Shown here: positions 25,127 through 61,333 of the stretch, in pieces | Numbering within the stretch: position 1 is the stretch's first letter | Layout of the letters: every line of letters starts with the position of its first letter | Assembly (NCBI RefSeq): GCF_023277745.1 | Contig: NZ_CP086322.1 | Coordinates: 4,154,001 to 4,218,000, forward strand | DNA length: 64,000 nt | DNA from: Streptomyces halobius | Lineage (GTDB): Bacteria > Actinomycetota > Actinomycetes > Streptomycetales > Streptomycetaceae | Reading direction: 5' to 3' | Program-made: the position numbers and the translations under genes | Notes under the pieces: model-generated | Database searches by the model: none | Told to the model about the DNA's origin: nothing | What the model saw: the letters and a program-made list of their open reading frames with translations, nothing else

Positions 25127-25395
25127 CACAGCCTCCTTTCCACTAGGACGTACCTGGAAGAGCAGAATAGTTGCAGCCGTCGCGGATCCGAGTGCCGAGG
25201 CCCCTGAGCTGGGCACTGTTAGGCTGAAGCCGCACTTTCCAAGAGGTGTAGCAAGGCCTCCGCAGCCCAGTCAGCCGGTGCTCGGGGGCCTTCACCATGC
25301 CCCGTGCCCCCACAGGCTCAGAAGGTCAATACGCCCAAACCCTGTCCGCGGGAGCCAGGCGGCATCGAAGGCAACGGGCGTGGGAAGAGCACCTT

Positions 25396-25683
25396 GTGCA
25401 CAAGCTCTCTGCCACCATCCGCCCGTACCGCGAGACCGACAGCCCCGCCGTGCTGGCGCTGATCGATGCGGATCGCCTGCCAGGCCAGCCGAGATGTACG
25501 CCGCGCATGCTCGAGCAAGCCCTGGACGGTCGCTCGCCGATCGACTCCCGCTGGTGGGAGGAACTCCAGCCTCCACGCACCGGCGTCCTCCTCGATGACG
25601 CAGGCCTCGTCACCGGCGCGGTCTCGTACGCGACCCGTCCGCGTGATGAGGCCGGGCTACTGCTGTGGATGCACTGCCGTGCA
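25396..25683 (+). pseudogene. GNAT acetyltransferase, truncated
   Basis: A rightward frame reads LSATIRPYRETDSPAVLALI and GVLLDDAGLVTGAVSYATRP, typical of a GNAT N-terminus through the central strand. After GLLLWMHC the similarity stops and the frame becomes low-quality sequence to 25854. The acetyl-CoA-binding loop is missing. Probably a broken gene at a junction between the early module and the cargo. Confidence 0.5.
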
Positions 25684-25973
25684 ATAGAACCCGGCACACA
25701 CCGTGGCGCCCACACCCGAAGGTGCGGGGGCCACGCTCCTCTGTCGGTTCTGGCGCTGACCATCAAGGCGCCCCACACGCACAGACGGCCTGACCCTGGC
25801 GGGAAGTGGGCTGCAACCTGTACCGAGGCCCAACGGCGCGGCGTACCGTTCTGACCGGCAGCCGCTCCGGGGGCCACTGCTCTGGCTGAAACTGTGGCTG
25901 TTCGGTTCCATGAAGTTACGGAAGGAGTAGCCTGACGGCGGCCAGCAGAGCCGTATACCCGGGCGGGGGGACT
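25684..25973. other. Spacer before the four-gene operon
   Basis: No gene recognised. It holds an imperfect hairpin (25703-25734) and presumably the promoter of the rightward operon. No convincing -35/-10 pair was identified. Confidence 0.4.
25703..25734 (+). terminator. Imperfect hairpin, possible terminator
   Basis: A GTGGCGCCCACACC arm, CGAA loop and GGTGCGGGGGCCAC arm pair with two mismatches. No T-run follows, so termination is only possible, not shown. Confidence 0.35.
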
Positions 25974-26750
25974 GTGGAGCGGCGGGGTGTTCAGGGACAT
26001 TACGAGCGGCTTGCTGCCGAGTATGACGAGCATTGGGTATATGGGCCGCACCACATCACCTGGATGTCTGCACACATAGCCGAGAGCCTGCATCTGTCTT
26101 CCGCTGACCGAATCGCCGACATCGGCTGCGGCACAGGAATGTTCGCACGCGAGGTGGCGCGGATCATCAACCCGCAGCACGCCATCCTCTGCGTGGACCC
26201 GTCGCTGGCGATGCTGCACCAGATCGGTACGCCACCACCCGCAGACCTGACGCCGATCGTAGCCTCGGCAGAAGACATCGCTACAGGACACGTCCAGTCA
26301 CCGTACGAGCAACTGGACGCCATCTGGTTGAAGGAATCGGTGCATCACATCGCCGATCCCGCCGCCACCCTGTATGGCCTGGCGGCTCGGCTTGCTCCCG
26401 GCGGTCGTTTACTCGTGGTCATGCTGCCGACCAGCATCGAGTACCCGTTGTTCCAGGCGGCGCTTGACCGCTTCACGGAACTCCAGCCCGACCCCGAGCG
26501 CATTGTCGGCCACCTACGGGCGGCCGGGTTGCAACCCCAACTTCGTTATGTGCAGCATGAGTTGCATCTCGATCGTGAGAAGTACATCGGGATGGTGCGG
26601 GCCCGCTACATGTCCGTGCTCTCCACGTTCAGTGACAGCGAGATCGAGAAGGGAATCGATGAGATGAGAGCCGCCCATCCGGAGTCGGTGCTCACCTTTC
26701 CCGACCGCTTCGCCTTCGTACTGGGCGTGAAACCGGGTGGTGGGCGATGA
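25974..26750 (+). CDS. Class I SAM methyltransferase, first gene of the conflict-type operon
   Basis: 258 aa. A Rossmann methyltransferase with motif I RIADIGCGTGMFAREVAR (about residues 42-58), acidic strand 2 ILCVDPSLAML, motif II-like SPYEQLDAIWLKESVHHI and post-motif LAPGGRLLVVML. GTG at 25974 follows a GGGGGGA site. The TGA overlaps the ATG of the NACHT-type gene (ATGA at 26747-26750). The substrate is unknown; small-molecule, RNA or protein targets are all possible. Confidence 0.8.
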   Translation: MERRGVQGHYERLAAEYDEHWVYGPHHITWMSAHIAESLHLSSADRIADIGCGTGMFAREVARIINPQHAILCVDPSLAMLHQIGTPPPADLTPIVASAEDIATGHVQSPYEQLDAIWLKESVHHIADPAATLYGLAARLAPGGRLLVVMLPTSIEYPLFQAALDRFTELQPDPERIVGHLRAAGLQPQLRYVQHELHLDREKYIGMVRARYMSVLSTFSDSEIEKGIDEMRAAHPESVLTFPDRFAFVLGVKPGGGR

Positions 26751-29398
26751 GCATGGCGGTGGACGAACGACTACAACGGCTCCGCAGCGAGCTCGATGAC
26801 CACTCCCGTGTCGCCGACCGCCTCGGTCTCGATCTCGAACGTCCCTTACGCAGCCTCAATGACGGCTATCCGGAGAACGCAATTTCTCTGGTCGGCAAGC
26901 TGGCGGAGAAGCTCCTCAAGGAGCTGTGGCGGCACCACGGCATCGAGGGCGACCCATCGGGCCGAGCCCTCAATGACCTGGTCAAGCGGTGCCAGCCGCA
27001 TATCCGCAGCAGTACCGTCCTAAATGCGCTGGATGACATCCGTCGTCTGCGCAACCGGTCCACGCACGACGGCTACGACATCTCCGATGAGGACGGGCTG
27101 CTCGCGATACGCCGACTCGTCGACGTCCTGGTCTGGTTCACGAGTACCAGCAGCTCTGCCTTGCTGGGCGGAGAGCCGCGCATGGATCCCGAGGTCGCCC
27201 GGCGCTGCGAGTTCCTCGCCGGGCTGTACATCACCCTCGGCTACCGTCAGGCCAAGCGATTCGTCCTTACCTCCGACACGGTCTACCAGCTCTTCTGCCG
27301 TGAATCGGGCATGCGCCTGGAGTACGTCGAGCTGATGGTCTCGCAGGACGTGGACGATCTTCGCGCCGTCCTCACCTCCAACGGCGGTGAACTGCTGCGC
27401 ACCCGTCTCCCTAAACTCACCCGCTTCGTCATCCTCAACGAGGCCGGTGCAGACGGGGAATTGCCCGGCCCTGTCCGTGAACTGCTCGGTCGCGACTACC
27501 GGCTGGTGCGCTACGACACTTTCATCGACAGGCACGTCGACCTTGCCGCCCACCTGGCCGAAGTGACCTCCGCGGAGTGTGCCGAACCACGTAGAGCCGT
27601 CACCGCCACTGTGCTGTCCACCGATACCCGCACGGGAGAGCCCCTCATCCAGACAGCCGAGGACGCAGCCACCCTCCTCGGCCGCCTTGCCCGTGACCAA
27701 GCCAACGTACTGATCACCGGTCGTCCCGGCAGCGGCAAAAGCACGCTGCTCCGAACACTTGCCGCGGGCCCCGACGCACAGCAGTTTCGCTTCTACTTTG
27801 ACCTCAGTCTCAAGCCGAGGGGCGAGACCTTCCCCGAATACGCCGCACGCCTGCTGTCCCCGTGCATGACGGCGGACCGCTCCCGTGCGTACGACCTGTT
27901 CCTCTACCTGATCCGGTCCGGTTCTGCGTTATGTGTCCTGGACGCGGTCGACGAGGGTGTGGACGAGGCCAGCCCCGCCGGCTTCCTGCGACTCTTCGCG
28001 GATCTGGCCCCGGTGCTCTCCGCTGAGTCCACCGTGGTCATGAGCTCGCGGGTGTCGTTCCTCGCCGACTCCCCCCAGGTCCGCCAGCTGCTGGAAAGCG
28101 GAGCTGCCCGGTCCGAGCAGCTGGTTGAGCAGATGTACGCGAACGGAGTCGACCCGGCCCGAGTACCGCACTTCCACCTCGTACGGCTCGCGGACCCCGA
28201 TGCCACGTTGCTGGAGATGCGACTGACCGCCTCCCTCCAACTTGCCTCTCCGCAGCCTCTCGATGCGTTGCTCGGCGCTCACATCACGAAGACCCTCGCC
28301 GACCAGGGTCAGGCCGATACCGAAGAGCGGCTGCCCGCAGTCTTCGGCAGGGCATTCCTCACCGATCAGACGGTCTTCTCCCTTCTCGATCTGCACCGCG
28401 ACCTTGGCCCTGACGCCTTCACCGACGGCCGTCTCGAACTCGGCAGCTGCGTGCTCGCTCCCCTGTTGCGGCCCGCCGGTCCGGACCAGGTCGCCTTCGT
28501 CCACACCGCCTACCAGGAGCTGCTGGCTGCCCGATTCCTTGCCACCCCCAGCGGTCGCGAAGAGGCCGCAGACCTGCCTGGCGGTGCCTTCATCACCGAG
28601 CAGGTAAGAGCCTTCCTCGCCCGCATACCGGCAGTTGTCCCTTCCGACGGCTGCGTACTTCCCGCTGGGGTCCACCTCGTCGGGCCGGCGGAACGGCTTT
28701 TGTTACGCCGCGTACGACACGCGGTCCGATTCGACCGCCACGCCGTCACGGTCGGCCGCTACCGCCGCTTCCTCGACGCCTTACGGCGCGATGGCACCTC
28801 GCCCTGGGACCACCCCGACCAGCCAGACCATGTCACCCACACCCCCTGGGCCGACCGGCTCCGCGAAGCGGACTACTACCGCAATCCCCGCTACGACGAC
28901 TACCCAGCCATCTGCGTCAGCTGGTGGAGCGCCTTCGCGTTCGCAGCCTTCGAGGGCAAGCGCCTGCCCACCGCGCTGGAATGGGAAGCCGCCGCTCGCG
29001 GAACGGACGGCCGCCTCTTTCCCTGGGGCGACGAGTCGGATGGCGCGCCGGTCAACTGCGCCGATACCTGGGTCGGTCATCCCGTGGTGACCTTCCACGC
29101 CTGGCAGCAGGAGTTCGCCCAAGAGGCACTTCGCCGAGCCTGGGTCACCCCGGTCGGCGAGAGGGCCGCGAACCGCTCCCCGTACGGCATCACCGACATG
29201 GCGGGGAACGTCTGGGAGTGGACCTCCACCAGCCTGGATGACGCCGGCGAAGCGGTCATCTGCGGTGGCAGCTACGACAATCCACTGCGCGCCGTGCAAG
29301 CGAGCAGCAAGGGCATCTACCGCAAACGTGGCTGCAGTAACGCGGTCGGTTTCCGTTGCGTACAGGACATCACCGACCCAGAGGCAGCCATCTCATGA
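26747..29398 (+). CDS. HEPN-like/NACHT NTPase with C-terminal FGE-sulfatase-like domain
   Basis: 883 aa. Residues about 1-135 form a helical region with RNRSTH (102-107), resembling HEPN/DUF4145 domains (R-x4-H). Residues about 300-460 are a NACHT/AAA NTPase with Walker A GRPGSGKSTLL (325-335), Walker B LCVLDAVDEG (395-404) and sensor VMSSRVSF. Residues about 660-878 are an FGE-sulfatase (C-type-lectin-like) fold with VSWWSAFAFAAFEGKRLPTA, WEAAARG, PWGDES, YGITDMAGNVWEWTS, GGSYDN and VGFRC. The two catalytic cysteines of true formylglycine-generating enzymes are absent. The layout matches STAND-type sensor/effector proteins of bacterial conflict systems. Confidence 0.85.
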   Translation: MSMAVDERLQRLRSELDDHSRVADRLGLDLERPLRSLNDGYPENAISLVGKLAEKLLKELWRHHGIEGDPSGRALNDLVKRCQPHIRSSTVLNALDDIRRLRNRSTHDGYDISDEDGLLAIRRLVDVLVWFTSTSSSALLGGEPRMDPEVARRCEFLAGLYITLGYRQAKRFVLTSDTVYQLFCRESGMRLEYVELMVSQDVDDLRAVLTSNGGELLRTRLPKLTRFVILNEAGADGELPGPVRELLGRDYRLVRYDTFIDRHVDLAAHLAEVTSAECAEPRRAVTATVLSTDTRTGEPLIQTAEDAATLLGRLARDQANVLITGRPGSGKSTLLRTLAAGPDAQQFRFYFDLSLKPRGETFPEYAARLLSPCMTADRSRAYDLFLYLIRSGSALCVLDAVDEGVDEASPAGFLRLFADLAPVLSAESTVVMSSRVSFLADSPQVRQLLESGAARSEQLVEQMYANGVDPARVPHFHLVRLADPDATLLEMRLTASLQLASPQPLDALLGAHITKTLADQGQADTEERLPAVFGRAFLTDQTVFSLLDLHRDLGPDAFTDGRLELGSCVLAPLLRPAGPDQVAFVHTAYQELLAARFLATPSGREEAADLPGGAFITEQVRAFLARIPAVVPSDGCVLPAGVHLVGPAERLLLRRVRHAVRFDRHAVTVGRYRRFLDALRRDGTSPWDHPDQPDHVTHTPWADRLREADYYRNPRYDDYPAICVSWWSAFAFAAFEGKRLPTALEWEAAARGTDGRLFPWGDESDGAPVNCADTWVGHPVVTFHAWQQEFAQEALRRAWVTPVGERAANRSPYGITDMAGNVWEWTSTSLDDAGEAVICGGSYDNPLRAVQASSKGIYRKRGCSNAVGFRCVQDITDPEAAIS

Positions 29399-29655
29399 GC
29401 GAGGCGCGACACGGCATCATCGTCGACCGTCGGCCCACCGGCGGAGGACAGACCGGAACGGTCGGCGCCTTCATCGTCCAAGACGAGGCGGACGGTGGCT
29501 ACTACACCTTCGACTACGCGCAGATCGTCACCGAAGGCTTCCGCACCATCCGCACGGGCGAACGCGTACGGTTCCATCCGGCCGCAGACCGCCCCGGTGG
29601 CGCGGAGTTCGTGGTCAGGCTCGACCAGCCCGACCCTGCTGAGTACTACCGGTGA
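29395..29655 (+). CDS. Cold-shock-domain-like OB-fold protein, 86 aa
   Basis: Reads HGIIVDRRPTGGGQTGTVGA, then a GGYYTFDYAQIVTEGFRTIR segment and GERVRFHPAAD. This follows the cold-shock order GxVxxF...VFVHYSAI...GFRTL...G..V.F, though the RNP aromatic motifs are altered. ATG overlaps the NACHT gene stop, and its own TGA overlaps the next GTG. Probably a nucleic-acid-binding or adaptor component of the operon. Confidence 0.65.
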   Translation: MSEARHGIIVDRRPTGGGQTGTVGAFIVQDEADGGYYTFDYAQIVTEGFRTIRTGERVRFHPAADRPGGAEFVVRLDQPDPAEYYR

Positions 29656-30929
29656 CCCTGGATCTGGAGACTGTCGCGGGGGCACGACAGATCCTCATGG
29701 TCGTGCTCCCGGTACGGCTGCTGCGCACTCCGGACTGGCCGGAGGGGCCCTTCCCGTTCGAGCTCGGCAGCAGACGGACGGATGCCGCCACCCGCGCAAC
29801 CTACTTCGCGCCCGCCTCCGCCAGAGTGCTGTACGGGTCGCCCGGACGCCCCTGCCGCTGGTATCGGGCGATGTCACTCGTCCACGACGGACTGCATCTG
29901 CAGGGCATGGAGCTGTTGCGTACTGCCACGGGACGGAGCCACGGACACGCTCTGGCGGTACTGCACTTCACCGTGGACAGACCACTGCTTCCGGTACTGC
30001 GAGCGATAGGCCACCGGCCCGATGCCGGCCCCGACCCACTCACCGGCCCGTTCGCGCCGCAGCAGCTCTTCGGACAAGTGGCCGAAGTCCGCGATGGCAC
30101 CGACGCGTTGGCGATTGCCCGCCCTTACACCATCGCCCTCCTCACTCCCGAAGCCCGCCACACGCCCGCGCTTCGGCCTGAGCCCACGGCAGCACTCCCG
30201 GCTACCGCCGACCACTGGCTGTGGCAGCTGGCATCCCGTTCCACGCCACGCGACTTTCCGCTCGCTCCGGAAACCGCCGCGGACGAATTCGATCAGGCTG
30301 TGCGCATCTCCGCCGACTGGAGCGCGCTGGTGCTGCGGCACAGCGCCGCCTTCCTCGGCCATCGCGCCGACGCCGGCGAGGGCGACTTCTACGAGTTCGG
30401 GGCCTTGCATGCCCGTACGGTCTACCTCGACGCACTGCTGCTCGGCACGCTCCAGCGTGACCACATCGACCGACTCACCGACGAACTCTCCGGGGTATTC
30501 GACGGCCCGCATCTTTCCGCCCAAGTCGGTTCGTTGGAAAGGAACATCGCGCTCTTCCGCAGTACGTACTGGCGCCAGCACCTGACCGCCCACGGCCCGG
30601 CCAACGTGCTACTGCTTGCCTTCCAGGCTCAGTACCGATTGCCCGAGCGTTTCGCGGAGATACTCGCCGAGGCCGCGGACTACAGCCGACTGGTCCAGAA
30701 CCAGGAGAGTCAGCAGATCAGCGGTGCTCTCGGGGTTCTCACCATCCTCGGCCTCCCCCTCGGCACGGCTCTCAGCGTCCTCCAGGTCCTCGGCGACGAG
30801 TCCGCCGCCCACCTGCTTGTCGCCCTCGGCCTGTCGATCGCCGCTACCGCCGCTGCCCTCACCACCCGGTACGGACGCCTCGTCATCTCCTCCCTCCGGG
30901 GTGGTGCCGGCCCTGAACCGCCTGCCTAA
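29652..30929 (+). CDS. CorA-like two-helix membrane protein, 425 aa
   Basis: A soluble N-terminal region of about 210 residues is followed by a helical domain with LTDELSGVFDGPHLSAQVGS and a long amphipathic helix. Two C-terminal transmembrane helices follow (about 355-380, SGALGVLTILGLPLGTALSV; about 388-410, AHLLVALGLSIAATAAALTT). This is CorA-like topology without the GxN signature of Mg channels. GTG at 29652 overlaps the previous TGA. As the last gene of a NACHT operon it is a plausible membrane-disrupting effector; that is inference. Confidence 0.65.
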   Translation: MTLDLETVAGARQILMVVLPVRLLRTPDWPEGPFPFELGSRRTDAATRATYFAPASARVLYGSPGRPCRWYRAMSLVHDGLHLQGMELLRTATGRSHGHALAVLHFTVDRPLLPVLRAIGHRPDAGPDPLTGPFAPQQLFGQVAEVRDGTDALAIARPYTIALLTPEARHTPALRPEPTAALPATADHWLWQLASRSTPRDFPLAPETAADEFDQAVRISADWSALVLRHSAAFLGHRADAGEGDFYEFGALHARTVYLDALLLGTLQRDHIDRLTDELSGVFDGPHLSAQVGSLERNIALFRSTYWRQHLTAHGPANVLLLAFQAQYRLPERFAEILAEAADYSRLVQNQESQQISGALGVLTILGLPLGTALSVLQVLGDESAAHLLVALGLSIAATAAALTTRYGRLVISSLRGGAGPEPPA

Positions 30930-30979
30930 GAGCACACCCGCACTTGGCGAGCAGCCGCGAGGGGCACCCTTCGTCACGC

Positions 30980-31075
30980 TGGCGGATCGAGCACGACTAC
31001 CGCGAGCTGAAGACCGCGTTGGGCCTGGACCACTTCGAGGGCCGCTCGTTCATCGGCTGGCACCAGCACGTCACC
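30980..31075 (+). pseudogene. IS701/IS4-type transposase C-terminal scrap
   Basis: The rightward frame reads WRIEHDYRELKTALGLDHFE followed by GRSFIGWHQHVT. This is the conserved region around the catalytic Glu of IS701/IS4-type transposases. Only about 32 codons remain. It abuts a truncated flavoprotein gene. Confidence 0.65.
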
Positions 31076-31365
31076 CCAGCGTGTCAGCAATGCCCGCGGC
31101 GAGCTTGGTGATCATGTTGAACGTTGCCGGCGCGACAACCACAGCTTGAGCCTGCAGTAGTTCCACAGGGGGCATCCGGGTTGAAATCCCAGCGTACGGC
31201 CTGCCCCGAGCTCCGTTCGGCGCGGTCGATGTCGAGAAACCGAAGCCCCACCGGAGTGGGGACGATGTACGGATCCCACCCAGCTGCCCGTAGCTCAGAT
31301 GCGAAGGCAGGGAGATCTCCGGTAGGGCGTGTCCCACAACCCACAAGGTGCATCACTGGACGCAT
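31075..31365 (-). pseudogene. Flavoprotein (EpiD/PPC-decarboxylase-like), truncated and frameshifted
   Basis: ATG at 31365 gives MRPVMHLVGCGTRPTGDLPA and later PTPVGLRFLDIDRAERSSG, the start of a homo-oligomeric flavin-containing decarboxylase fold. After DFNPDAP the frame shifts; VVVAPATFNMITKLAAGIAD then follows in another frame, and the gene ends at the transposase scrap. It is a remnant. Confidence 0.6.
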
Positions 31366-46027: not shown

Positions 46028-48130
46028 ATGACAACAGCGCCCGCACAAAAGACGCTTCCGAAAACTCCCGTCAGAATCACGAGCGTGCTGAGCGGCTTTG
46101 CCCTGGACGTCGAGGATGGGTCCCGGGAGGGCCAGGCGGCTGTCATTCAGTCGTCGGCTCCGGACACCGAGCACCAGCACTGGCGGTTCATCGCCGTGGG
46201 AGACGACCAGTATCGCATCGAGAACGAGTACAGCGGCGGTGTTCTCGACACCAAGGGTGCCTCCGAGGCCGAGGGAGCACCGGTCATCCAGCTCGGGTGG
46301 CAGGCTCGGGATACCCAGCGGTGGCAGATCGTTCCTGTGGCGGACGGACAGTACCGGATTGAGAACGTCGACAGCCACAAGGACATCGACGTCAAGACGT
46401 CGAAAGACAAGGCACCGGTCATCCTGGAAAAGCCACATGAGGGTGAAGATCAGATGTGGCGAATCGACCCGGTCGAGGAGCCTGTCCAGGTGGGGACGGT
46501 GCTGACCTGGGGGCAAAACACGTACTCCCAGCTCGGCACAGGTCCCGACCCCGACAGGAACACGCCTGCGCAGGTGAAGATCGACGCCTCTCTGCCCCTC
46601 GACCGGGTCAAGGCTCTCGCCAATGCCAGCTTCCACAGTCTGGCGCTGCTGGAAGACGGCACAGTCCGTGCGTGGGGGAACAACGGTGAAGGCGGACTTG
46701 GCGACGGCAGCCGCCAGGCCAAGAACGTCCCCGTAGCGGTGCTGGCCCGCCCCGGCGGTGAGCAGCTCAAGGGGGTCAAGGCCATCGCCACCGGGAGCTA
46801 CTACGGCTGGGGCCACAGCCTGGCGCTGCTGGAGGACGGCACGGTGCGCGCCTGGGGGTACGGCGACTATGGCCAACTCGGTTACGGCGCCAAAGACAAC
46901 CAGTTCACGCCGGTAGCGGTGAAGGTTGACAAGAACACGGAGCTGTCCGGAGTCAAGGCCATCGCGGGGCCCATGGTCGAGCAGTACAACTGGGAGGGGA
47001 TGTTCAGCCTGGCGCTGCTGAAAAATGGCACGGTACGGTCCTGGGGCTACAACTACTACAACTCTCTCGGCGACGGCTCCGCCGACACCCGACTCATGCC
47101 GGTCACGGTGGTGGTCGACAAAGGCAAGCCCCTCACCGGGGTCAAGGCCCTTGCCGCAGGCGCCCACCATTGCCTGGCGTTGCTGGAGGACGGCACGGTG
47201 CGTGCCTGGGGGTACAACGACTTTGGCCAGCTGGGCAATGGCAACCAATCTGCACAGGCCTTTGCGGTGCCGGTGACGATCAACGACAAGGGTGACCCCC
47301 TCACCGGGGTCGAGGCCATCGCGGCCGGCGGCAAGTTCAGTCTGGCCCTGATGAAGGACGGCACCGTACGGGCCTGGGGGCGCAACAACGATGGCCAGCT
47401 AGGCATCGACAGCATCGAAGACCGCAGCAAGAGGCCGGTCGTGGTGAAGATGGCCAAGAACGGCGCACCTCTCAGAGGGGTCAAGGCCCTTGCCGCAGGG
47501 GCCTACCACAGCATGGCGTTGCTGGAAGACGGCACGCTGCGGGCCTGGGGACGCAACGCACATGGCCAGCTCGGGATCGGCGAGACCACCACCAACGAGA
47601 AGACGCCGGTGGTGGTCCGGTTCACGAAGGGCGGCGAGCCGCTCAACGCAGTCACAGCCATCGCCGCCGGTGCCTACCACAGCATGGCGATTCGCGGCGT
47701 CTCCCTGTCGATATCGCCGGCTGTGCCGCCGGACCAGACGCTGACACTGGCCGGCGAAGTCGGCTACCCGGGTGTGCACCTGGCCGCCGAAGGCACGGTC
47801 TCTGCGGCGCAGAGCGTCCGTGTGACCCTGCCCCAGGGGAAGGGTCTGCGGTTCGTCGCTCAGGGAGGTCCCGCCGGCCACATGCTGACCGTCATGGACC
47901 CTGTTCGAGGCATAAACCACTTCCCGGGGAACCTGTCGACGGACGGGCAGACCCTCACGTTCAACAACGTCGACCTGGCCCTGCCGCAAAGGGGCTCGTG
48001 GTCCAGGGCATGGGTCGCGGTGAAAGCCTCCCCCGACGCCCTCCTGGGAGACACGAACCTGACCTTCCAGATAGGTGACCGAACCGGCCCCTCCACGCCT
48101 ATCCACGTCGTGGACCAGACGGCCGAGTGA
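46028..48130 (+). CDS. Ricin-type lectin fused to RCC1 beta-propeller, 700 aa
   Basis: Residues about 12-150 form a beta-trefoil with three QxW-like motifs (HQHWRF, QRWQI, DQMWRI). Residues about 155-555 hold RCC1 repeats, each with SLALLEDGTVRAWG followed by YGQLG or NGQLG (seven recognisable). A beta-sandwich C-terminal domain follows (about 560-700). No signal peptide, lipobox or sortase signal is present. A GGAGGAGAG ribosome site precedes ATG at 46028. It probably binds a carbohydrate or protein; the role in a tail cluster is open (decoration, adhesion or unrelated cargo). Confidence 0.8.
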   Translation: MTTAPAQKTLPKTPVRITSVLSGFALDVEDGSREGQAAVIQSSAPDTEHQHWRFIAVGDDQYRIENEYSGGVLDTKGASEAEGAPVIQLGWQARDTQRWQIVPVADGQYRIENVDSHKDIDVKTSKDKAPVILEKPHEGEDQMWRIDPVEEPVQVGTVLTWGQNTYSQLGTGPDPDRNTPAQVKIDASLPLDRVKALANASFHSLALLEDGTVRAWGNNGEGGLGDGSRQAKNVPVAVLARPGGEQLKGVKAIATGSYYGWGHSLALLEDGTVRAWGYGDYGQLGYGAKDNQFTPVAVKVDKNTELSGVKAIAGPMVEQYNWEGMFSLALLKNGTVRSWGYNYYNSLGDGSADTRLMPVTVVVDKGKPLTGVKALAAGAHHCLALLEDGTVRAWGYNDFGQLGNGNQSAQAFAVPVTINDKGDPLTGVEAIAAGGKFSLALMKDGTVRAWGRNNDGQLGIDSIEDRSKRPVVVKMAKNGAPLRGVKALAAGAYHSMALLEDGTLRAWGRNAHGQLGIGETTTNEKTPVVVRFTKGGEPLNAVTAIAAGAYHSMAIRGVSLSISPAVPPDQTLTLAGEVGYPGVHLAAEGTVSAAQSVRVTLPQGKGLRFVAQGGPAGHMLTVMDPVRGINHFPGNLSTDGQTLTFNNVDLALPQRGSWSRAWVAVKASPDALLGDTNLTFQIGDRTGPSTPIHVVDQTAE

Positions 48131-53274: not shown

Positions 53275-53328
53275 CTCACTGCTGCCTGGCCGCGTGACGG
53301 AGCCCTGGGCCAGGCAGCCGTAAGTGAG
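53275..53328 (-). terminator. Terminator of the seven-gene operon
   Basis: GCTGCCTGGCC (53281-53291) pairs with GGCCAGGCAGC (53308-53318), with an outer CTCACT/AGTGAG pair. It ends one base before the stop codon of the methyltransferase gene, in the right place to end the leftward transcript. Confidence 0.75.
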
Positions 53329-54171
53329 TTAGGGGCGGGTGGCGATGATGGCTTCGGTGCGTACGACTTCGTCGAAGATGCCGGCGGGGCTGAAGTCGGT
53401 GAGGGCCTGCCGGAGATCGCGTTCGAAGGCGTCCTTGTGGTCGCCGAGCTGGGCGGGGCTGGAGTAGCTGTAGGAGAACTGGAGGCCGATGATCTCGTCC
53501 AGGGTGCGGGTGAGGGTGCGGTCCCAGCGGGTGATGTCGATGTTCGGGAATGGGGAGTGGGCGAGCACGTCCTGGTGGCGTTGCTTGGGGTGGGAGTAGG
53601 TGCCGGAGCCGGCTCGCCGTTCGGGGCCGAGGTGTTGGGTGCGGACCTCGGCGATGATGTCGAGCCAGGGGGCCGGTTCGACGTCGCCGGGGGCACCGCC
53701 GGAGGCGAGGACGATGGCCCCGTTCGGTTCGATGAGCTGGTCGAGGTCGCGCAGGGTCTGGTCGCGGTCCATCCAGTGGAACGCCGCGCCCATCACCGTC
53801 AGGAGCACCGGTTCCAGGTCCATGCTGAGCAGGGTGGTGGAGTCACCGCGTCGCCAGTCGATGTTGGTGATGTCCTGCTCGGCGGCGAGCTTGCGGCCCT
53901 CTTCCAGCATGCCGGGCTCGGGATCGACGGCGGTGACATGGCCGACGAGCCTGGCCAGCGGGAGGGCGAGTACGCCGGTGCCGGCGCCCAGATCCAGGAC
54001 GCGCTCGCTGCCGCTCAAGGCGAAGCGTGCAGCCAGCATGTCGTAGAAGGCAAGGTCGTAGCCGGGCCGGAAACGGGCGTAGTAGGGGGCCGTGGAGGCG
54101 AACAGCTCGTCGGGTGTGTAGGCGGTCATCTCGTTGATCTTTCGGGTCCAGTTGGCCGAGTGTGGTGTCAT
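53329..54171 (-). CDS. SAM methyltransferase, last gene of the operon, 280 aa
   Basis: Motif I VLDLGAGTGVLALPLARLVG, acidic strand VTAVDPEPGMLEEG, then FHWMDRDQTLRDLDQLIEPN and GAIVLASGG. This is the UbiE/small-molecule class, residues about 45-160. ATG at 54171 overlaps the PhyH stop (TGATG). It likely methylates the pathway product or intermediate. Confidence 0.75.
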   Translation of the reverse strand: MTPHSANWTRKINEMTAYTPDELFASTAPYYARFRPGYDLAFYDMLAARFALSGSERVLDLGAGTGVLALPLARLVGHVTAVDPEPGMLEEGRKLAAEQDITNIDWRRGDSTTLLSMDLEPVLLTVMGAAFHWMDRDQTLRDLDQLIEPNGAIVLASGGAPGDVEPAPWLDIIAEVRTQHLGPERRAGSGTYSHPKQRHQDVLAHSPFPNIDITRWDRTLTRTLDEIIGLQFSYSYSSPAQLGDHKDAFERDLRQALTDFSPAGIFDEVVRTEAIIATRP

Positions 54172-55034
54172 CACTGAGAACGAGCCGGGGTCGAGTTGAG
54201 GTGTTGCCACCAGGTGCGCAGGGGCTCGGCTCCGGCGCTTTCGTGCGCGACGGAGCCGTCCGGGTTGCGGTCGGGCTGGCCGAGCAGCTGGCGCTCGATT
54301 TCGGTCAGGTCCTCGCGCTCCAGCAGTTCGGGGGCGGGGTCGTCGACGGGAGCGAGCCAGCGGTAGCCGTATTGCATCATCACCGCGAGCCGGGGGCGGC
54401 CGGAGGTGTTCAGCCCGCCGGCGTGCCAGGTGCGGTTCTCGAAGAGCAGCGCATCGCAGGGGCCGAGGTCGGGGGTAATCGCGCTGGGCGGGTCGATGGC
54501 CCCGGGCGGGACGGTGACGGGTCCGGTGTTGGTGTGGCTGCCAGGGGCGACCATGGTGATCCCGGCGTCGGGGGTGGGGTCGCTGAGGAAGTAGGCCGCC
54601 TTGATCGCCAGGCGGGGAACGGCAGTGGTGCCGAGGTCGCGGGCGGCGGCGCCCATGTCGCGGTGCCAGCCGTGCCGTTCGGGAACGCGAATGGTGCGCG
54701 TGCCGCCGGGCGGGATGGACGGCATGTAGATCAGGTTGCTGGACATCAGGTGCAGGTTCGCGCTCAGCAGCGCGACGAGGGTCGGCAGAACCTTCGGATT
54801 GGTGACCAACGGCAGGAAGGTGTCATCCATGGTGACGACGCCGCGGAAGCCGTCCTTGCCGTCGACGCTACGGTCCCGTCCGGCTGTGCGGTCGCTCTCC
54901 AGCAGCCGCATCGCCACGGCGGCGGCCTGCTCGCGCCATTCGGGTGTGATCACCTCGCGGAGGATGGCGAAGCCGTTGCGCTCGAAGGCGTCCAGGACGT
55001 CCCGGTCGGGCGGAGAGGCCGTTTCGAGGGTCAT
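54171..55034 (-). CDS. PhyH-family Fe(II)/2-oxoglutarate dioxygenase, 287 aa
   Basis: The HxD motif lies in RHGWHRDMGAAARDLG, a facial-triad His in LLFENRTWHAGGLNTSG, and a downstream Arg (GRPRLAVMMQYG) would bind 2-oxoglutarate. Length and order match phytanoyl-CoA dioxygenase-like hydroxylases of secondary metabolism. ATGA overlap with the phosphoketolase-like gene. Confidence 0.85.
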   Translation of the reverse strand: MTLETASPPDRDVLDAFERNGFAILREVITPEWREQAAAVAMRLLESDRTAGRDRSVDGKDGFRGVVTMDDTFLPLVTNPKVLPTLVALLSANLHLMSSNLIYMPSIPPGGTRTIRVPERHGWHRDMGAAARDLGTTAVPRLAIKAAYFLSDPTPDAGITMVAPGSHTNTGPVTVPPGAIDPPSAITPDLGPCDALLFENRTWHAGGLNTSGRPRLAVMMQYGYRWLAPVDDPAPELLEREDLTEIERQLLGQPDRNPDGSVAHESAGAEPLRTWWQHLNSTPARSQ

Positions 55035-57190
55035 CGGGTGCGCTCCTTGAGCATGAGTGCGGCCTGGGCGGAGAGGGCGGCGGCCGAGAGGTCGCAGCGG
55101 TCCAGCAGGCCCTCTGGTGTGGTGGGGCGGCCGGGGTCCCGGTAGCCGACGACATGGAACCGTCCGGTCTCGCCGCGGGCGGCCAGCAGTGCGCGGACGA
55201 TGCCGGGGTGGGTGGGGACGGCCATCAGGACGGGGGTATCGGTGCGGAACAGACGGGTGAACGCCCTCTCGGAAAGAGCGTAGGGCCAGTGCGGCGCAGG
55301 ACCGAGGACCGCGAGGTCATTGACATGCAGATAGCGGATCTTGGTCTCGGGGTGGGACTTCCGTAGCAGCCTGGCGGCAGCTGACAGCTCGCGGGCCGGA
55401 ACGTCCCCGGCCGAGGCGAGGACGAGGTCCGGTCGTCCGCGGTGGCTCAGGAGGGGCCAAACGGCGGCACCTTCGGTGAGCTCGTCGCGGAACGGATCCG
55501 GCGGAAAGGAGGGGCCGGGATGCTTGTCGGTGATCAGGAAGTTGACGCGGTCGTGTCCGGCCAGCATCACGCCGAGGGTGGCGGCGGCCCGCATTGCGTC
55601 CGCCGGGGTGTAGACGTGTACGAAGCCGTCCTCGGTCTCCAGCATGGACGAGACCAGACCGGGGTTTTGGTGGGTGTAGGTGTTGCGCCAGCCCAGCGAG
55701 GTGATCAGGTAGTTGATCGATGGCAGTCCGCCCTGCCCGGACGCGTAGCGCAGGCGTCGGTGCTTGAGGTGCTGGACGAGCAGGCTGGTGTTGACCGGGG
55801 CGAAGGCTTCGTACGTGGCCAGGAGTGCGTCCCGGCCGGTCTCGGTGTAGCCCTGCAGCCAGCCGTGGCAGATCTCCTCGTTGAGGATCTCGACCGCCCA
55901 GGGCGGCAGCGAACCGCCCCTGCCCAGTTCCAGCCGGTTGGAGGCAATCTCGTCAGGGCTGAATAGGCGGAAGGCCCCGTCCGCCGCGCGCTCGCGGATG
56001 ACCGCGGACACCAGCGGCCAGGACTGCGGTCCGCGGGAGGCCAGGGGAACCGACGAACGGGCCGTCTCCGGTTGACGGGAAGGGCCGGGGAGGGCCTGGC
56101 GGACCAGGTCGGTGGGTCGCCCCTGGGTGGTGAACAGCTCGGCGGGACGGTAGGAGGCGAGCCAGGCCGCCAGCGCCGCGAACTCCGCATCGCTGCGGCG
56201 AGGGTCTTTCAGCGGGGTTTTATGGACAGCAGGGGTTCCCGAGATCCGTCGGCCGGCCACCTGCTCTGGTCCGGTGTGGCCCTTTGGCATGGTCAGCACG
56301 AGCACCGGCTGCCGACCGGGCTCATTGAGCGGACGTAGGCGGCTGAAGGCGTCGGACAGCAGCTGGCGGAAGCCGGGCAGGGCGGCGCCGTCGTGGATCT
56401 GCGGCTCGTATCCGAGGCCGGTGAAGTAGCCGTGTACCTCGTCCTCGGTCATGTCGGCCAGCAGCGAGGGGCCTCCCATCTTCAGGCCGTTGGCCAGCAC
56501 CACGGGCAGCACCGCCCCGTGGTCCCCGCTTCCGGACAGTGCCCGGCGGGCGAGCCAGGCCGCCGCGGTCGCCCCGGTCTCCAGCTCGCCGTCGCCGATC
56601 AGCGGGACGACCAGGCGGTGCGGGGCGTCCAGCACCATGCCTTGCGCGACGGCGAGGGCGGGGCCGAGCTGGCCGCCGGTGTGGCGGACGCCGGGGATAA
56701 GCGGGGTGATCTCCCCTCCGAAACGCTCCGGGTGCGGGAACCCGCTGATGAGGGCGCGTAGTTCGGGCATCGACCAGCCCGGCCCCTTGCCGGTCAGGTG
56801 GAGAGTGCCGTTGAGGTAGGCGTGGGCGAGGGCGGACGGGCCCGCGTGCCCGGCGCCGTGCAATACCAGCAGCTCAGCCCCGGGGGGCCGCCAGGCTGTC
56901 AGCGGGCCGAGGTGGGCGAGCATGTAGTTGACCGGCGGGCAGACCCCCCAGTGCCCGCGTGGGGTCTCCTTGACGTCCGTCGTCCTGAGCGGGCGGGCGA
57001 GACGGGGGTTGTCGGTCAGGTAAAGCTGGGCGGCGGACAGATGGTTCAGGGCACGCCAGCAGGCGTTGATGGCTTGGTCGGGCACTGCCTTGGCGGCCTG
57101 GTCGGCGGCGTGGCTCCAGTCGGGGAAGCCGGGGGATGGCGACCCTGGCGGTGCCGGGGCGTCGATGCGCGGGGTGGTGGTCCGGGACAT
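55031..57190 (-). CDS. Phosphoketolase-like ThDP enzyme, 719 aa
   Basis: XFP family features in order: RGHWGVCPPVNYMLAHLG, LHGAGHAGPSALAHAYL, LIGDGELETGATAAAWLARR (ThDP-binding GDGE..E), FSPDEIASNRL (catalytic Glu block), then GWLQGYTETGRDALLATYEA and SINYLITSLGWRNTYTHQNP. About 80 residues shorter than xylulose-5-phosphate phosphoketolases and divergent in the sugar-phosphate site, so its substrate may differ. It probably cleaves a ketose phosphate or performs a related C-C lysis. Confidence 0.8.
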   Translation of the reverse strand: MSRTTTPRIDAPAPPGSPSPGFPDWSHAADQAAKAVPDQAINACWRALNHLSAAQLYLTDNPRLARPLRTTDVKETPRGHWGVCPPVNYMLAHLGPLTAWRPPGAELLVLHGAGHAGPSALAHAYLNGTLHLTGKGPGWSMPELRALISGFPHPERFGGEITPLIPGVRHTGGQLGPALAVAQGMVLDAPHRLVVPLIGDGELETGATAAAWLARRALSGSGDHGAVLPVVLANGLKMGGPSLLADMTEDEVHGYFTGLGYEPQIHDGAALPGFRQLLSDAFSRLRPLNEPGRQPVLVLTMPKGHTGPEQVAGRRISGTPAVHKTPLKDPRRSDAEFAALAAWLASYRPAELFTTQGRPTDLVRQALPGPSRQPETARSSVPLASRGPQSWPLVSAVIRERAADGAFRLFSPDEIASNRLELGRGGSLPPWAVEILNEEICHGWLQGYTETGRDALLATYEAFAPVNTSLLVQHLKHRRLRYASGQGGLPSINYLITSLGWRNTYTHQNPGLVSSMLETEDGFVHVYTPADAMRAAATLGVMLAGHDRVNFLITDKHPGPSFPPDPFRDELTEGAAVWPLLSHRGRPDLVLASAGDVPARELSAAARLLRKSHPETKIRYLHVNDLAVLGPAPHWPYALSERAFTRLFRTDTPVLMAVPTHPGIVRALLAARGETGRFHVVGYRDPGRPTTPEGLLDRCDLSAAALSAQAALMLKERTR

Positions 57191-57193
57191 GGG

Positions 57194-58357
57194 TCAGCTC
57201 CGGGTGCGGGTGGCAACCGCGTCGATGACGGCGGTGATGCGAGCGGTGCGGATGTCGGCCGTGGCGGATTCGCTGATCAGGTGCAGCATCTGGGCCTGCT
57301 CGTGGGCTGGCAGCACCGACCAGTCCAGAGAGGCCCGTTCCAAGGCGGCGGCCAGGTCGTCGGGGACGCTGCGGCCGATCCGGTCGCGAATGGGCTGAAG
57401 GGTGAGCGGGATGCCGGGCCATTCGGCCTCGGCGGCCTCGGGGGTCTCGTGAGGGATGGCGGCCTGGCCGTGCAGGGAAACGGCGACGGCGGTGTGGGCC
57501 GTGCCATCCGGGAAGGTCACCCGCAGCCGCTTGCCGCGCAGGCCGACCGGTCCGGTGCAAGGCAGCAACAGCATGCCGCGTGCCCCGGCACCAACCGGGC
57601 GAGCCAGAACGTGCAGCGTCTCAACGCCAGTTGGCAGCGGCAGCAGAACGCGATGGTCCTCGGCCGGGGCCGCGTGGCCGGGCAGCGGGGGCTGAGTGAC
57701 GGCGATGATGCCGCCTTCGCCCCTCCCGGTACGGCGGGAGGTCTTGTGCGTGAACAGGCAGCGGTCCACGGCGGCCAGCAGGCGGTCGGTGAAGGCGTGC
57801 TTCCAGCCGCCGGGGCCGCGCCTGGCGGGGAGGTGTTCGGCGGAGGCGAAGGTCAGCGCGAGGGAGACGCGTACCGGCAGCTCGTGGGCGAGCTGGTCCC
57901 GCAGCTCGGCGATGGCCCGGTGGAAGGTGGACGCGTCGTCCAGGGCGGCCGCGATGATGACTTCGTCGCCGCCGAAGGTGGCCGCGCATCCGGCCTCCCA
58001 GGGCTGCTGGTGGAACCACGTGCGGGTGACGGCACCGAGGCGAGCCATCACCTTGTTCCCGGCCAGGTGCCCGTAGCAGCCCGGCTCGGTCGCGTTCGCC
58101 TTCTCAACGTGGTCCTTGAGACCGTCGACGTCGCCAATCGCCAGCCCCACCAGTCCCCCGCCGGTCAGCGCGGCGGCGAGGGCTCGGGGAATGTGGCTGT
58201 GGAAGTCGGGGAAGGCGACCAGGCCGGTGACCGCGTCCTCGCGGCTGCCGGCGCACCAGTTACGCAGCGGCATCCATGCCGGGTCGAACAACGGCACCGA
58301 GCTCGCCAGCGGGTCGTCGGCGGGCGAAGCGTGGCAGTGCTTGGCGGTCGGGTCCAT
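57194..58357 (-). CDS. GGDEF-like protein in a metabolic operon, 387 aa
   Basis: Residues about 45-175 follow the GGDEF fold: TGLVAFPDFHSHIPRALAAA, LAIGDVDGLKDHVEKAN (metal-binding Asp), YGHLAGNKVMARLG, then the signature FGGDEVIIAA. The C-terminal 200 residues are unrelated. ATG at 58357 was chosen over GTG 58363 because GGAGG sits seven bases upstream. It may make a cyclic dinucleotide or use the fold for another nucleotidyl transfer. Confidence 0.7.
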   Translation of the reverse strand: MDPTAKHCHASPADDPLASSVPLFDPAWMPLRNWCAGSREDAVTGLVAFPDFHSHIPRALAAALTGGGLVGLAIGDVDGLKDHVEKANATEPGCYGHLAGNKVMARLGAVTRTWFHQQPWEAGCAATFGGDEVIIAAALDDASTFHRAIAELRDQLAHELPVRVSLALTFASAEHLPARRGPGGWKHAFTDRLLAAVDRCLFTHKTSRRTGRGEGGIIAVTQPPLPGHAAPAEDHRVLLPLPTGVETLHVLARPVGAGARGMLLLPCTGPVGLRGKRLRVTFPDGTAHTAVAVSLHGQAAIPHETPEAAEAEWPGIPLTLQPIRDRIGRSVPDDLAAALERASLDWSVLPAHEQAQMLHLISESATADIRTARITAVIDAVATRTRS

Positions 58358-59082
58358 CAGCACGCCTCCGAGTTCATCGACGGGGCCGGTGCGGGCCCGG
58401 CGGGCAGCAGCAGGGGCAGGGTGGTGAGCGTGTGGAGGCGTACGGTGCGGGCTGAGCTCAGCAGCGGGCCGCCGGCCATGCGGCGGTCCAGCCAGGCGGT
58501 ATGCCAGCCCGCCGCAGCGGCGCCGGCGACATCCGCCCGCAGCGAATCCCCTACGTGCAGCAACTGGTCCGGGCCCATGCCGCTGACGTGTTCGACGGCG
58601 GTGAAGGCTTCGCGCTCGGGTTTGGCCGCGCCGGTCTCGGCCGAATAGATCACCCGGTCCAGCAGGTCCCGGAAAGCTGCCGGGGTCTCGGCCGGGACGG
58701 ACGAGCCGAGGCTGTTGGTCAGGGCGAACAGAGTGAAGCCCCGCTGCCGCAGCGCGGTCAGGGCTGGTGAAGTGTCGGGAAACAGTTGCGGTTCGGCGGC
58801 CCGCTGGCGGGCTCGTTCCAGCACGTGCACGAGCGGGCCGAGGAGCCCGGGGCGGCCGAAGGCCGCGGCCAGGTCCCGGGCGAGTTCTTCGGGGGTGATC
58901 CGGCGGCGCTTCGCCCCTTGTTCCATTACCGCGCGGGCCTGCTCCAGCGAGATGCCCAGCACTTGTGCGACCTGCCCGGTCGTCGGCTCGGCTTCCGTAC
59001 GCACCAAGGTGCCGCCCAGGTCGAAGCAGATGCCACGAACCTGCGGCCAGAGGGTGCTGCGTAAGCGGGGCTGGGCGATCAC
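58357..59082 (-). CDS. HAD-family hydrolase, 241 aa
   Basis: Motif I ICFDLGGTLVR (the second Asp of DxD is Gly, as in some HAD relatives), motif II FALTNSLGSS, motif III Lys in GAAKPEREAF, motif IV LLHVGDSLRADVAG. The cap domain lies between I and II. GTG at 59082 overlaps the enolase-like gene's TGA. It probably dephosphorylates an intermediate, though the motif I change could reduce activity. Confidence 0.8.
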   Translation of the reverse strand: MIAQPRLRSTLWPQVRGICFDLGGTLVRTEAEPTTGQVAQVLGISLEQARAVMEQGAKRRRITPEELARDLAAAFGRPGLLGPLVHVLERARQRAAEPQLFPDTSPALTALRQRGFTLFALTNSLGSSVPAETPAAFRDLLDRVIYSAETGAAKPEREAFTAVEHVSGMGPDQLLHVGDSLRADVAGAAAAGWHTAWLDRRMAGGPLLSSARTVRLHTLTTLPLLLPAGPAPAPSMNSEAC

Positions 59083-60269
59083 GGGCCCGTCACCTCCAGC
59101 ACTGCCGTCTTCTCCGGCAGCCTGGGGACCTCGGTGAGTCCTGGGGCAGAACGGACGGCCAGCCGCCCGCCCTCGCCCTGGACGGGGTTGGTGAAGATCT
59201 GCTGTCGCAGCGGCTCCAGGGTCAGGTGCCACTCGACGGCGGGGATTTTGTCCCGGCAACAGGCCCCGGCCAGGGCCAGGGCGGCCGGCAGCCGATCGCC
59301 GTGGGGAAAGGTCGCCATCCCCAGGTCCGCGGCGAGCTCGGTGGTGTGCAGCGACCGCGCCAGCCCGCCCGACCAGCCCGGGTCGATCTGCCAGACGTCC
59401 ACTCCCCCGCCGGTCAGCAGCCGGACCTGCTCGGCCTCGTCGACGGCGTTCTCGCCCGCCGCCAGCGGAACCCCCGCCCCGGCAGCCCGCAACCGATGCC
59501 AGCTCCACGAGCCGGGCGGCACCAGTTCCTCGGCGAAGGCGACCTGAAGATCCGCGAGAACGGGCAGCAGCCGCATCGCCTCGTCCAGGCGGCAGCGGCC
59601 CAAGCCGTCGACCATGAACCGGCCCTCGCCTGCGGCCTCCCGTAACGGGGTCAGGGCCTTCGCGACCGCGCCCGGCCCGGCGAGGATCAGCTGCTTGGTC
59701 AGCGGCCACTTCTGCCCCCAGAACCCCGCCTTCGTGATCCAGGCTGCGGCTTCTTGAGCCTCCGAGTGGGACGGGTCGAGGCCGAGCGCGGAGGCATAGG
59801 CAGGAACGGTGCGGCGGACCGCGCCACCCAGCAGCCCGGTCACACTCACCCCGGCGGCGCGGGAAGCCAGGTCCCAGCAGGCCAACTCGACCGCAGAAGA
59901 GGCCAGCCGGGCGTGCGCCCCGCTGCGGTGCCGGCCGGTCTTCTTGCGATAGGCGAGGCGGCGCGGTGCGGCGGCATCGTGCCCGATCAGCCCAGCTGCC
60001 AGGTCGTCGGCGATGATCTGCGCGACCGTCTCACCGACGGGAGCCTGCCAGCCGGAGACGCCGTCGCCAACCAGCTCGATGGCAAACCGGGTACGGTGCT
60101 CGGCCCAGCCTGGGCCTGCGGGCGGGTCACTCGCTGCGGCGGCGAGCGGCTCGGGCAGGCCATGCGGGAGCCCGACCGGCTGTGGAGGAAGCTGCCAGGC
60201 GCGGACCGCGCGGATCACGGTGGCCGAGGCGCCTGTCCTGGCGGGGGTGGGAACGGTAAGGACCGGCAT
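59079..60269 (-). CDS. Enolase-superfamily (mandelate racemase/MLE-like) enzyme, 396 aa
   Basis: Metal-ligand blocks: FMVDGLGRCRLDEAM (Asp), VAFAEELVPPGSW (Glu), PLAAGENAVDEAEQVR (Glu), with VDVWQIDPGWSGGLAR and a C-terminal FPHGDRLPAAL (possible His base). The N-terminal capping domain is present. ATG at 60269 overlaps the previous stop (TGATG). It should catalyse an enolate-type epimerisation, dehydration or cycloisomerisation. Confidence 0.8.
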   Translation of the reverse strand: MPVLTVPTPARTGASATVIRAVRAWQLPPQPVGLPHGLPEPLAAAASDPPAGPGWAEHRTRFAIELVGDGVSGWQAPVGETVAQIIADDLAAGLIGHDAAAPRRLAYRKKTGRHRSGAHARLASSAVELACWDLASRAAGVSVTGLLGGAVRRTVPAYASALGLDPSHSEAQEAAAWITKAGFWGQKWPLTKQLILAGPGAVAKALTPLREAAGEGRFMVDGLGRCRLDEAMRLLPVLADLQVAFAEELVPPGSWSWHRLRAAGAGVPLAAGENAVDEAEQVRLLTGGGVDVWQIDPGWSGGLARSLHTTELAADLGMATFPHGDRLPAALALAGACCRDKIPAVEWHLTLEPLRQQIFTNPVQGEGGRLAVRSAPGLTEVPRLPEKTAVLEVTGP

Positions 60270-61333
60270 CAGATCTTCGCCCCCGTCAGTTCTTCCCCGG
60301 CGAAGGTGAAGCACCACGGCGACCGGTAGTTCTGCCACCACTGCGGACGCAGCCCCGTAGGGGCGAAGAGTTCTTCCAGGCTGCGTCGCATGGTCAAGTG
60401 CCACTCGATCGTCTCGGACCCGGGGGTGCGGTAGACGTCCATGAACGCGTTGTGGGCCTGGTAGGTCTGGAACCGGGGGAAGGTGGTGGTGACGGGCACG
60501 AACGTCTTGAGATGCTCGACAGCGTCCTCAATCGGGTCCAGGCCGACGATGTAGGTGAAGTCGGTGGTGATGCCCCGCTGCTTGGCCCGCCCCAGGGCCG
60601 CGGTCATCTCCTGAGGCGTGAGCTTGGCCTTGGACTCCTTGAGGATCTGTCGCCGTTCGGTGAAGCACTCGGCTGTCAGCGTCAGGTGGAACGGGCCCAG
60701 ACCGGCGGCGGCATCCATGCCCCCCTCGCTGGTCAGCACCGAGGACAGGAAGTGCAAGGTGCCGGTACAGCCGTTCTCGCCCATGGCCGCGCGGACCTCG
60801 GCGAGGTGGTCCAGCGCGAGGTCCTCATAGAGGAAGCAGCCGGTGCAGACGGTCACCGTCTCCACCGAGGCGAGGTCGTCCATGCCGGAGTTCGCCGCCA
60901 GGGCCCCGAGATAGCCCGACAGGTCCAGGGCCTTGATCTTCGGGTCGGAAGCGTCTTCGAGGGTATTGGGGCAGAACACACAACCAGTGCACTGGCTACG
61001 GGCGTTGGAGTTGAGAGTGAGCATTCTCCTCCCACCTCGCCAGTAGCCCAGCACCGCGTCGTCGTCCTCAATGCCGTCGATCTCGCCGACCTTTTCTCCG
61101 TTCAGCCGTAATTCGTGCTCGTCCAGCTCGAACGGCGAATCCTGGCGGCCGAGCGAGAGGATTAGGAACAGCGGGATGTCGGGGCGGGGGTCCAGCCGCA
61201 GCTTGAAGCGCATCCGGGGCTTGGTCAGCGGGGACCGGGCTCCGGACGCGTTCAACGCAATCAGCAGCACGTCCTCGGGGTTGATGTTCCACTCGCGGGC
61301 CACCTGTTGAAGGTGGCGGACCGATTCGAGCAT
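60269..61333 (-). CDS. Radical SAM protein with CX2CX2C cluster motif, 354 aa
   Basis: The cluster lies in RSQCTGCVFCPNT at about residues 113-125, followed by an alpha/beta barrel (VETVTVCTGCFLYEDL, LHFLSSVLTSEGGMD, GPFHLTLTAECFTERRQIL). The spacing is CX2CX2C, not the canonical CX3CX2C. An N-terminal domain of about 100 residues precedes it. First gene of the operon; promoter expected in 61334-61426. Confidence 0.8.
   Translation of the reverse strand: MLESVRHLQQVAREWNINPEDVLLIALNASGARSPLTKPRMRFKLRLDPRPDIPLFLILSLGRQDSPFELDEHELRLNGEKVGEIDGIEDDDAVLGYWRGGRRMLTLNSNARSQCTGCVFCPNTLEDASDPKIKALDLSGYLGALAANSGMDDLASVETVTVCTGCFLYEDLALDHLAEVRAAMGENGCTGTLHFLSSVLTSEGGMDAAAGLGPFHLTLTAECFTERRQILKESKAKLTPQEMTAALGRAKQRGITTDFTYIVGLDPIEDAVEHLKTFVPVTTTFPRFQTYQAHNAFMDVYRTPGSETIEWHLTMRRSLEELFAPTGLRPQWWQNYRSPWCFTFAGEELTGAKI

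Follow-up and report, generated by a model that had tools for sequence, protein, structure and literature searches.

Organization of the locus

The DNA analysed was a 64,000-nt window of the Streptomyces halobius genome (positions 4,154,001-4,218,000 of a single 9.24-Mb contig), in which four rightward genes at 25974-30929 form an operon coding for a predicted S-adenosylmethionine (SAM) methyltransferase (gene 1), a HEPN-NACHT-formylglycine-generating enzyme (FGE)-like protein (gene 2), a small cold-shock/OB-like protein (gene 3) and a CorA-like protein (gene 4). An earlier note on the window had described these genes, their 4-base overlaps and their families, and had placed broken genes at the borders. 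All three junctions were recovered as 4-base overlaps in the open reading frame (ORF) calls for the window, the families were confirmed by profiles, and a gene fragment was found at the left border and a possible one, with a match below cut-off, at the right (Table 1). A promoter-like segment with a TAGCCTG- or TAACCTG-like box at its end was found upstream of gene 1 in most of 15 aligned loci, with differing DNA further upstream; since the upstream segment is partly conserved in these loci, the block probably carries its own promoter, and promoter activity is putatively assigned to the segment before gene 1.

Table 1. Coordinates of the operon, its domains and its borders in the window.
Feature	Coordinates	Strand	Basis
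Part of broken GNAT gene, left border	25358..25681	+	90% match to part of 293-aa GNAT gene L193:10234-11115
Upstream part of mobile block, promoter-like region (putative)	25880..25973	+	91.4% match with G306 begins here
Gene 1, class I SAM methyltransferase, 258 aa	25974..26750	+	Pfam Methyltransf_12 4e-13
Gene 2, HEPN-NACHT-FGE protein, 883 aa	26747..29398	+	Profile, alignment and fold matches
HEPN domain of gene 2, residues 19-141	26801..27169	+	RNRSTH, residues 102-107, at 27050-27067
NACHT domain of gene 2, residues 321-445	27707..28081	+	Walker A 325-333, LDAVDE 398-403
FGE/SUMF1-like domain of gene 2, residues 658-872	28718..29362	+	Pfam FGE-sulfatase 1e-34
Gene 3, small cold-shock/OB-like protein, 86 aa	29395..29655	+	Weak CSD/Csp matches
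Gene 4, CorA-like protein, 425 aa	29652..30929	+	PADLOC CorA 2.9e-8, hydropathy, AlphaFold2 model
Possible transposase fragment, right border, starts within shared block	30944..31111	+	DDE_Tnp_1 6.8e-4, below cut-off

Predicted domains of the four proteins

The gene 2 product was assigned to the NACHT clade of STAND NTPases by its Pfam NACHT score (27.5 bits against a cut-off of 26.7) and by intact Walker A and acidic Walker B motifs that are conserved in the alignments. Its HEPN fold is clear and carries the Rx4-6H motif of HEPN RNases, with the R, N and H residues invariant in the alignments; the same fold matches HEPN-MNT toxins. The C-terminal FGS domain (Pfam) is fused to the STAND NTPase, as in the STAND-FGS architecture, and has sequence relatives in the PDB among CalU17 and the sulfatase-modifying factors. 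Active formylglycine-generating enzymes carry an active-site cysteine pair after a GGS motif. The corresponding stretch, GGS[YF]DNPxRAVQ, was without cysteine in the 10 aligned sequences, and the domain does not qualify as an active enzyme of this kind.

In relatives linked to diversity-generating retroelements (DGRs) the FGE C-terminus is hypervariable (PMC7159879). Gene 2 differs from these diversified FGS sensors in that its FGE C-terminus is conserved in all three families compared, and the trigger may accordingly be a conserved one. Reverse transcriptase gave 24 matches genome-wide and none inside the window, a remote DGR not having been searched for by template repeat; several of the 24 had identical scores, suggesting repeated copies of a mobile element, perhaps group II introns. 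No effector-associated domain (EAD) was found among the best 25 of the 28 Pfam matches of gene 2, and the coverage of EADs by Pfam was not checked. PADLOC-DB 2.0.0 returned no strong match to gene 2, only five weak ones (best 7.6e-5) over a short P-loop stretch.

In gene 1 the glycine-rich SAM motif and D75 are invariant in 16 aligned sequences. In the host genome a 46-47% relative of gene 1 (L195:4993-12633, from C1:6,278,000-6,296,000) is separated by about 5 kb from a gene for a kinase-FGE protein, and the interval gave weak matches to FHA and MotA/ExbB. Gene 3 fell short of the Pfam CSD profile (E 0.15; 12.4 bits against a cut-off of 27); 298 homologues were found at E <=1e-3, a few of which carry the source name cold shock CspA family.

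The gene 4 product has a soluble N-terminal domain, long helices and two C-terminal hydrophobic segments by hydropathy and in an AlphaFold2 model (mean pLDDT 63.8, confident mainly at residues 11-150). No Pfam family matched it at E up to 1. The PADLOC CorA models, which we take to be CRISPR accessories, matched residues 244-376 only (best PDLC01043). CorA Mg channels have a GMN motif after the first transmembrane helix; this motif was absent from the C-terminal stretch of 10 aligned gene 4 sequences, and gene 4 does not therefore qualify as such a channel. The closest named relatives are Streptomyces sioyaensis proteins (92-93%).

Conservation of the four-gene unit

One genome per species was scanned with the gene 2 alignment by means of peptide patterns, all taken from the HEPN region, so that relatives lacking this region are missed. 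The scan gave 34 loci, all from Streptomyces, in which genes were called by a simple ORF method based on GC3. In every locus gene 2 was preceded, on its own strand, by a gene 1 match (in L080 it is partial and about 1.6 kb away), and all four genes were encoded in 30 of the 34. An in-frame ATG or GTG overlapping the preceding stop by 4 bases was found at all three junctions in 26 loci and at 89 of the 94 testable junctions. Of the eight other loci, L107 and L080 reach the contig end within the operon, gene 2 is shortened in L109 and L111, the frame breaks at one junction in L100 and L101, the overlaps differ in L098, and in L084 gene 4 is inverted and about 2.5 kb off. A family-wide search gave eight fetched loci with the four genes in order, seven with three 4-base overlaps and one (L067) with two, together with two broken loci (L045, L049). 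Four of the eight intact loci lie on contigs equal in length to those of loci in the first set (L042/L079, L048/L105, L051/L092, L069/L103), so that the sets cannot be treated as independent.

In a class-wide sample of 394 genomes, strong matches to gene 3 (E <=1e-29) and full-length or long matches to gene 2 (E <=1.8e-176) were obtained in exactly the same 12; the next-best matches were at 2.5e-5 for gene 3 and 6e-33, FGE-only, for gene 2. The probability of this coincidence is 4e-23 if the genomes are taken as independent, which they are not. The question raised by the earlier note, whether the genes stay together across genomes, can thus be answered in the affirmative. Nine of the 12 genomes belong to two other families and have the same gene order, with gene 4 beside genes 2 and 3 in all nine and gene 1 in eight (partly matched in L183); in L184, the ninth, gene 1 is missing and gene 2 is truncated. 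Identity of these families to the window is about 51% for the methyltransferase, 50-55% for the NACHT protein, about 48% for gene 3 and 37-42% for the CorA-like protein.

By region (7-9 distant loci per value), conservation between families was highest for HEPN (65%), FGE (61%), NACHT (56%) and the methyltransferase (51%), lower for gene 3 and the middle region of gene 2 (48% each) and for the post-NACHT region (44%), and in the CorA-like protein fell from 47% (residues 346-425) through 44% (181-345) to 32% (1-180), the lowest value. This pattern would fit a conserved switch and RNase combined with faster-evolving recognition and membrane parts. The dN/dS values for genes 1-4 were 0.37, 0.12, 0.19 and 0.15 against G306 (lowest in the HEPN part, 0.04) and 0.12, 0.15, 0.26 and 0.18 against L081. 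On these ratios the four genes are under purifying selection.

Gene 4 outside the operon

Of 38 loci fetched in a search with gene 4, 37 had a match, and gene 2 was also present in 10 (eight intact, two broken). The loci with gene 4 alone comprise 19 at 57-76% identity and eight at 26-35%. Thirteen of the 19 closer copies are held by a sister genus, where several share a chromosomal site near a dapD-like gene (named by eye). In L046 gene 4 is preceded by a short ORF similar both to the start of gene 1 and to the end of gene 3, and protein P0105 has a gene 1-like beginning and continues as gene 4; at least these two would seem to derive from the operon by deletion. From the solo copies and these apparent derivatives, gene 4 alone would seem to be tolerated.

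Distant CorA relatives (32-35%) were seen in L072:4301-10610, L073:9197-15680, L070 and L074, each with an uncharacterized protein of about 600-660 aa encoded next. Two more proteins, of about 430 aa and then about 660 aa, come after it in L072 and L073, with 4-base overlaps and, in L072, KH and VWA matches; L070 likewise encodes a VWA protein. These operons are possibly another conflict system using the same CorA family.

Mobility and defence neighbourhood

The block at 25880-30964 aligned with genome G306 at 91.4% along 5,086 bp, and nothing else matched within the 20 kb that were compared. In the window it is set in phage DNA (endolysin, tape measure and tail genes, with a weak holin match), part of which is related to that of Streptomyces phage ZL12 (at 67%, covering 50% of a 7.9-kb query), and in G306 it adjoins genes for a DnaB-like protein and a coupling protein of the TraG/TraD type. 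In S. mirabilis a plasmid record of 1.03 Mb carries a gene 2 relative at 75%, and no flank family was found in more than 9 of 39 loci. A related prophage in G821, 90% identical to the window over 1.95 kb of lysis genes, carries a 293-aa GNAT gene and other cargo where the window has the GNAT fragment and the operon, an exchange that resembles the prophage hotspots of PMC9122126. As judged from these comparisons, the four-gene block is mobile. The cargo site of the related prophage also holds a 2188-aa ORF (L193:3471-10037), polyketide-synthase-like by eye.

Enrichment in defence islands, a check proposed in the earlier note, found support in the flanks of the operon: PADLOC families matched at 1e-8 numbered 243 for the 128 nearest flank proteins and 7 for 128 random proteins of the host genome, a gap that is smaller in protein numbers because one helicase can match dozens of models. 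From 465 called flank proteins, 209 satisfied the limits (150-1300 aa, no more than 5 kb away), which left out the window, L041, L044, L047 and L067; 129 were picked from the 34 loci, nearest first, with at most five per locus and a residue limit, and the CorA copy of L084 was then removed. The control was drawn from 151 called proteins in 12 regions of this one genome. Named neighbours were HmaA (E 0) in L085, MzaB and MzaC in L093, a type IV restriction enzyme in L090 and GajB-like helicases in L101 and L103. Among ten flank proteins chosen by hand, not at random, eight gave a match.

DUF5753 and HTH_31 were each present in 10 of the 128 flank proteins. Elsewhere in the window, 53308-60709, which includes a phosphoketolase gene, matched L100 (S. 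samsunensis) at 83.6% over 7.4 kb, in that genome close to the operon, and 46028-48130, near the phage tail genes, encodes a 700-aa protein with a ricin-type lectin domain and RCC1 repeats.

Relation to known systems

The closest published class comprises the STAND NTPase-FGS conflict systems (Kaur et al., 2021; PMC8195603), which share the central NACHT/STAND NTPase, the FGS domain and a predicted counter-invader setting. As described there, they use EADs or TIR, peptidase and kinase effectors, frequently with DGRs; the present operon differs in its HEPN domain, in its separate methyltransferase, OB-like and CorA-like genes, in a conserved FGE C-terminus and in having no reverse transcriptase gene within the window. 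An N-terminal HEPN domain is likewise joined to a STAND NTPase in bacterial HEPN-STAND proteins (Anantharaman et al., 2013; PMC3710099), some of which also contain OB domains of the cold-shock-like or S1 type. In the operon, unlike these, a gene of its own encodes the OB-like protein, gene 2 ends in an FGE domain and two more partners are present; formylglycine, sulfatase and CorA gave no match in the main text of that paper.

Anti-phage bNACHT proteins of clade 6 (PMC12169576) also have an N-terminal effector and a central NACHT domain. Their effector is described as a PD-(D/E)XK nuclease or as none discernible, unlike the HEPN domain here, and HEPN, formylglycine, lectin and CorA were not matched in the main text. 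The CorA effectors of type III CRISPR systems, which are bound by SAM-AMP (Chi et al., 2023; PMC10600005), resemble gene 4 in the C-terminal membrane region, with a different N-terminal domain; they differ in that the match is confined to the PADLOC segment given above and that cas10, NrN and SAM-AMP lyase are lacking among the four genes. Tha (PMC11087260) and HepS are, like gene 2, prophage-borne HEPN proteins, but the descriptions consulted mention neither NACHT or FGE nor a methyltransferase or CorA partner. NACHT, NLR, HEPN, CorA and AVAST had no match in the main text of a survey of actinobacterial defence (PMC10482375). The set of HEPN-NACHT-FGE, methyltransferase, OB-like and CorA-like proteins was not found in the literature searched, which covered few subscription papers. 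The earlier note had not recognised the set as a named system, and it is a strong candidate for an unnamed bacterial immune system. What appears new is the four-gene combination, the STAND-FGS and HEPN-STAND cores being known.

Proposed function and alternatives

The proposal that the operon is a conflict or defence system built around a protein like the nucleotide-binding leucine-rich-repeat (NLR) immune sensors of animals is supported by the co-occurrence of the genes and by their defence-like flanks, and the four-gene block is very probably a conflict or defence module. In the mechanism proposed, the HEPN-NACHT-FGE protein would be sensor and switch. A trigger would be received by the FGE domain and the helical region, the NACHT NTPase would oligomerise, and the clustered HEPN domains would become an active RNase. 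The OB-like protein may bind the RNA substrate or present RNA, the CorA-like protein would be a second, membrane-directed effector, and the methyltransferase may set the threshold or protect self by methylating RNA, protein or a ligand. The HEPN domain is probably a catalytic effector, and the balance tips slightly towards the CorA-like protein being a membrane effector. The mechanism as a whole, that of a mobile, self-contained NLR-like conflict module of actinomycetes directed most likely against phages or mobile elements, is put forward tentatively, its chances being a little short of even.

Two points weigh against the interpretation in the earlier note, which took the set as the best candidate for something new. 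The parent classes, the STAND-FGS conflict systems and the HEPN-STAND proteins, are already in print, and gene 4 is often alone, 27 of the 37 loci lacking gene 2 within about 10 kb. Homologues occurring alone with no co-occurrence would, according to that note, have refuted the reading; solo copies were seen of gene 4, and genes 2 and 3 share the same 12 genomes.

The CorA-like protein could be the sole effector, with HEPN a non-catalytic domain for oligomerisation or an adaptor. The C-terminal region is kept in 33 aligned CorA sequences, and the distant relatives in other operons, some of which also encode KH and VWA proteins, suggest a portable effector; the invariant HEPN residues, and the position of HEPN as the most and CorA residues 1-180 as the least conserved region between families, argue to the contrary, and this explanation is considered unlikely. 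Somewhat less likely still is a toxin-antitoxin-like stability or abortive module, in which the HEPN and CorA toxins would be checked by gene 1 or gene 3 and mobile elements would be stabilised rather than phages sensed. It would agree with the carriage of the block by phage DNA and a plasmid record, with its location next to conjugative-type genes and with the resemblance to HEPN-MNT toxins. A simple toxin-antitoxin pair, however, needs no NACHT switch with a C-terminal FGE domain, and the persistence of solo gene 4 in many genomes suggests that its product is probably not strongly toxic at native level.

That the operon is a housekeeping regulator of stress or development in actinomycetes, and not an immune system, is improbable: all loci of the gene 2 scan are from Streptomyces and solo gene 4 relatives occupy a shared site in the sister genus, but presence is patchy (12 of 394 genomes), the settings are mobile and the neighbours are defence genes. 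CRISPR-independent SAM-linked immune signalling, in which the NACHT switch would fire the HEPN RNase and membrane leakage through CorA while the methyltransferase made, consumed or tuned a SAM-derived ligand gating CorA, is the least credible of these explanations and is given very little weight.

If the NLR-like conflict module is as proposed, an NLR-like immune system would be present in at least three actinomycete families, and an RNase and a membrane protein, two candidate effectors, would be placed under one NACHT switch. Two accessory genes have been retained with the NACHT protein despite deep divergence. At 5.1 kb the unit is compact, and its parts could be tested singly, including recognition by an FGE-type sensor and the retention of the methyltransferase and OB-like genes.
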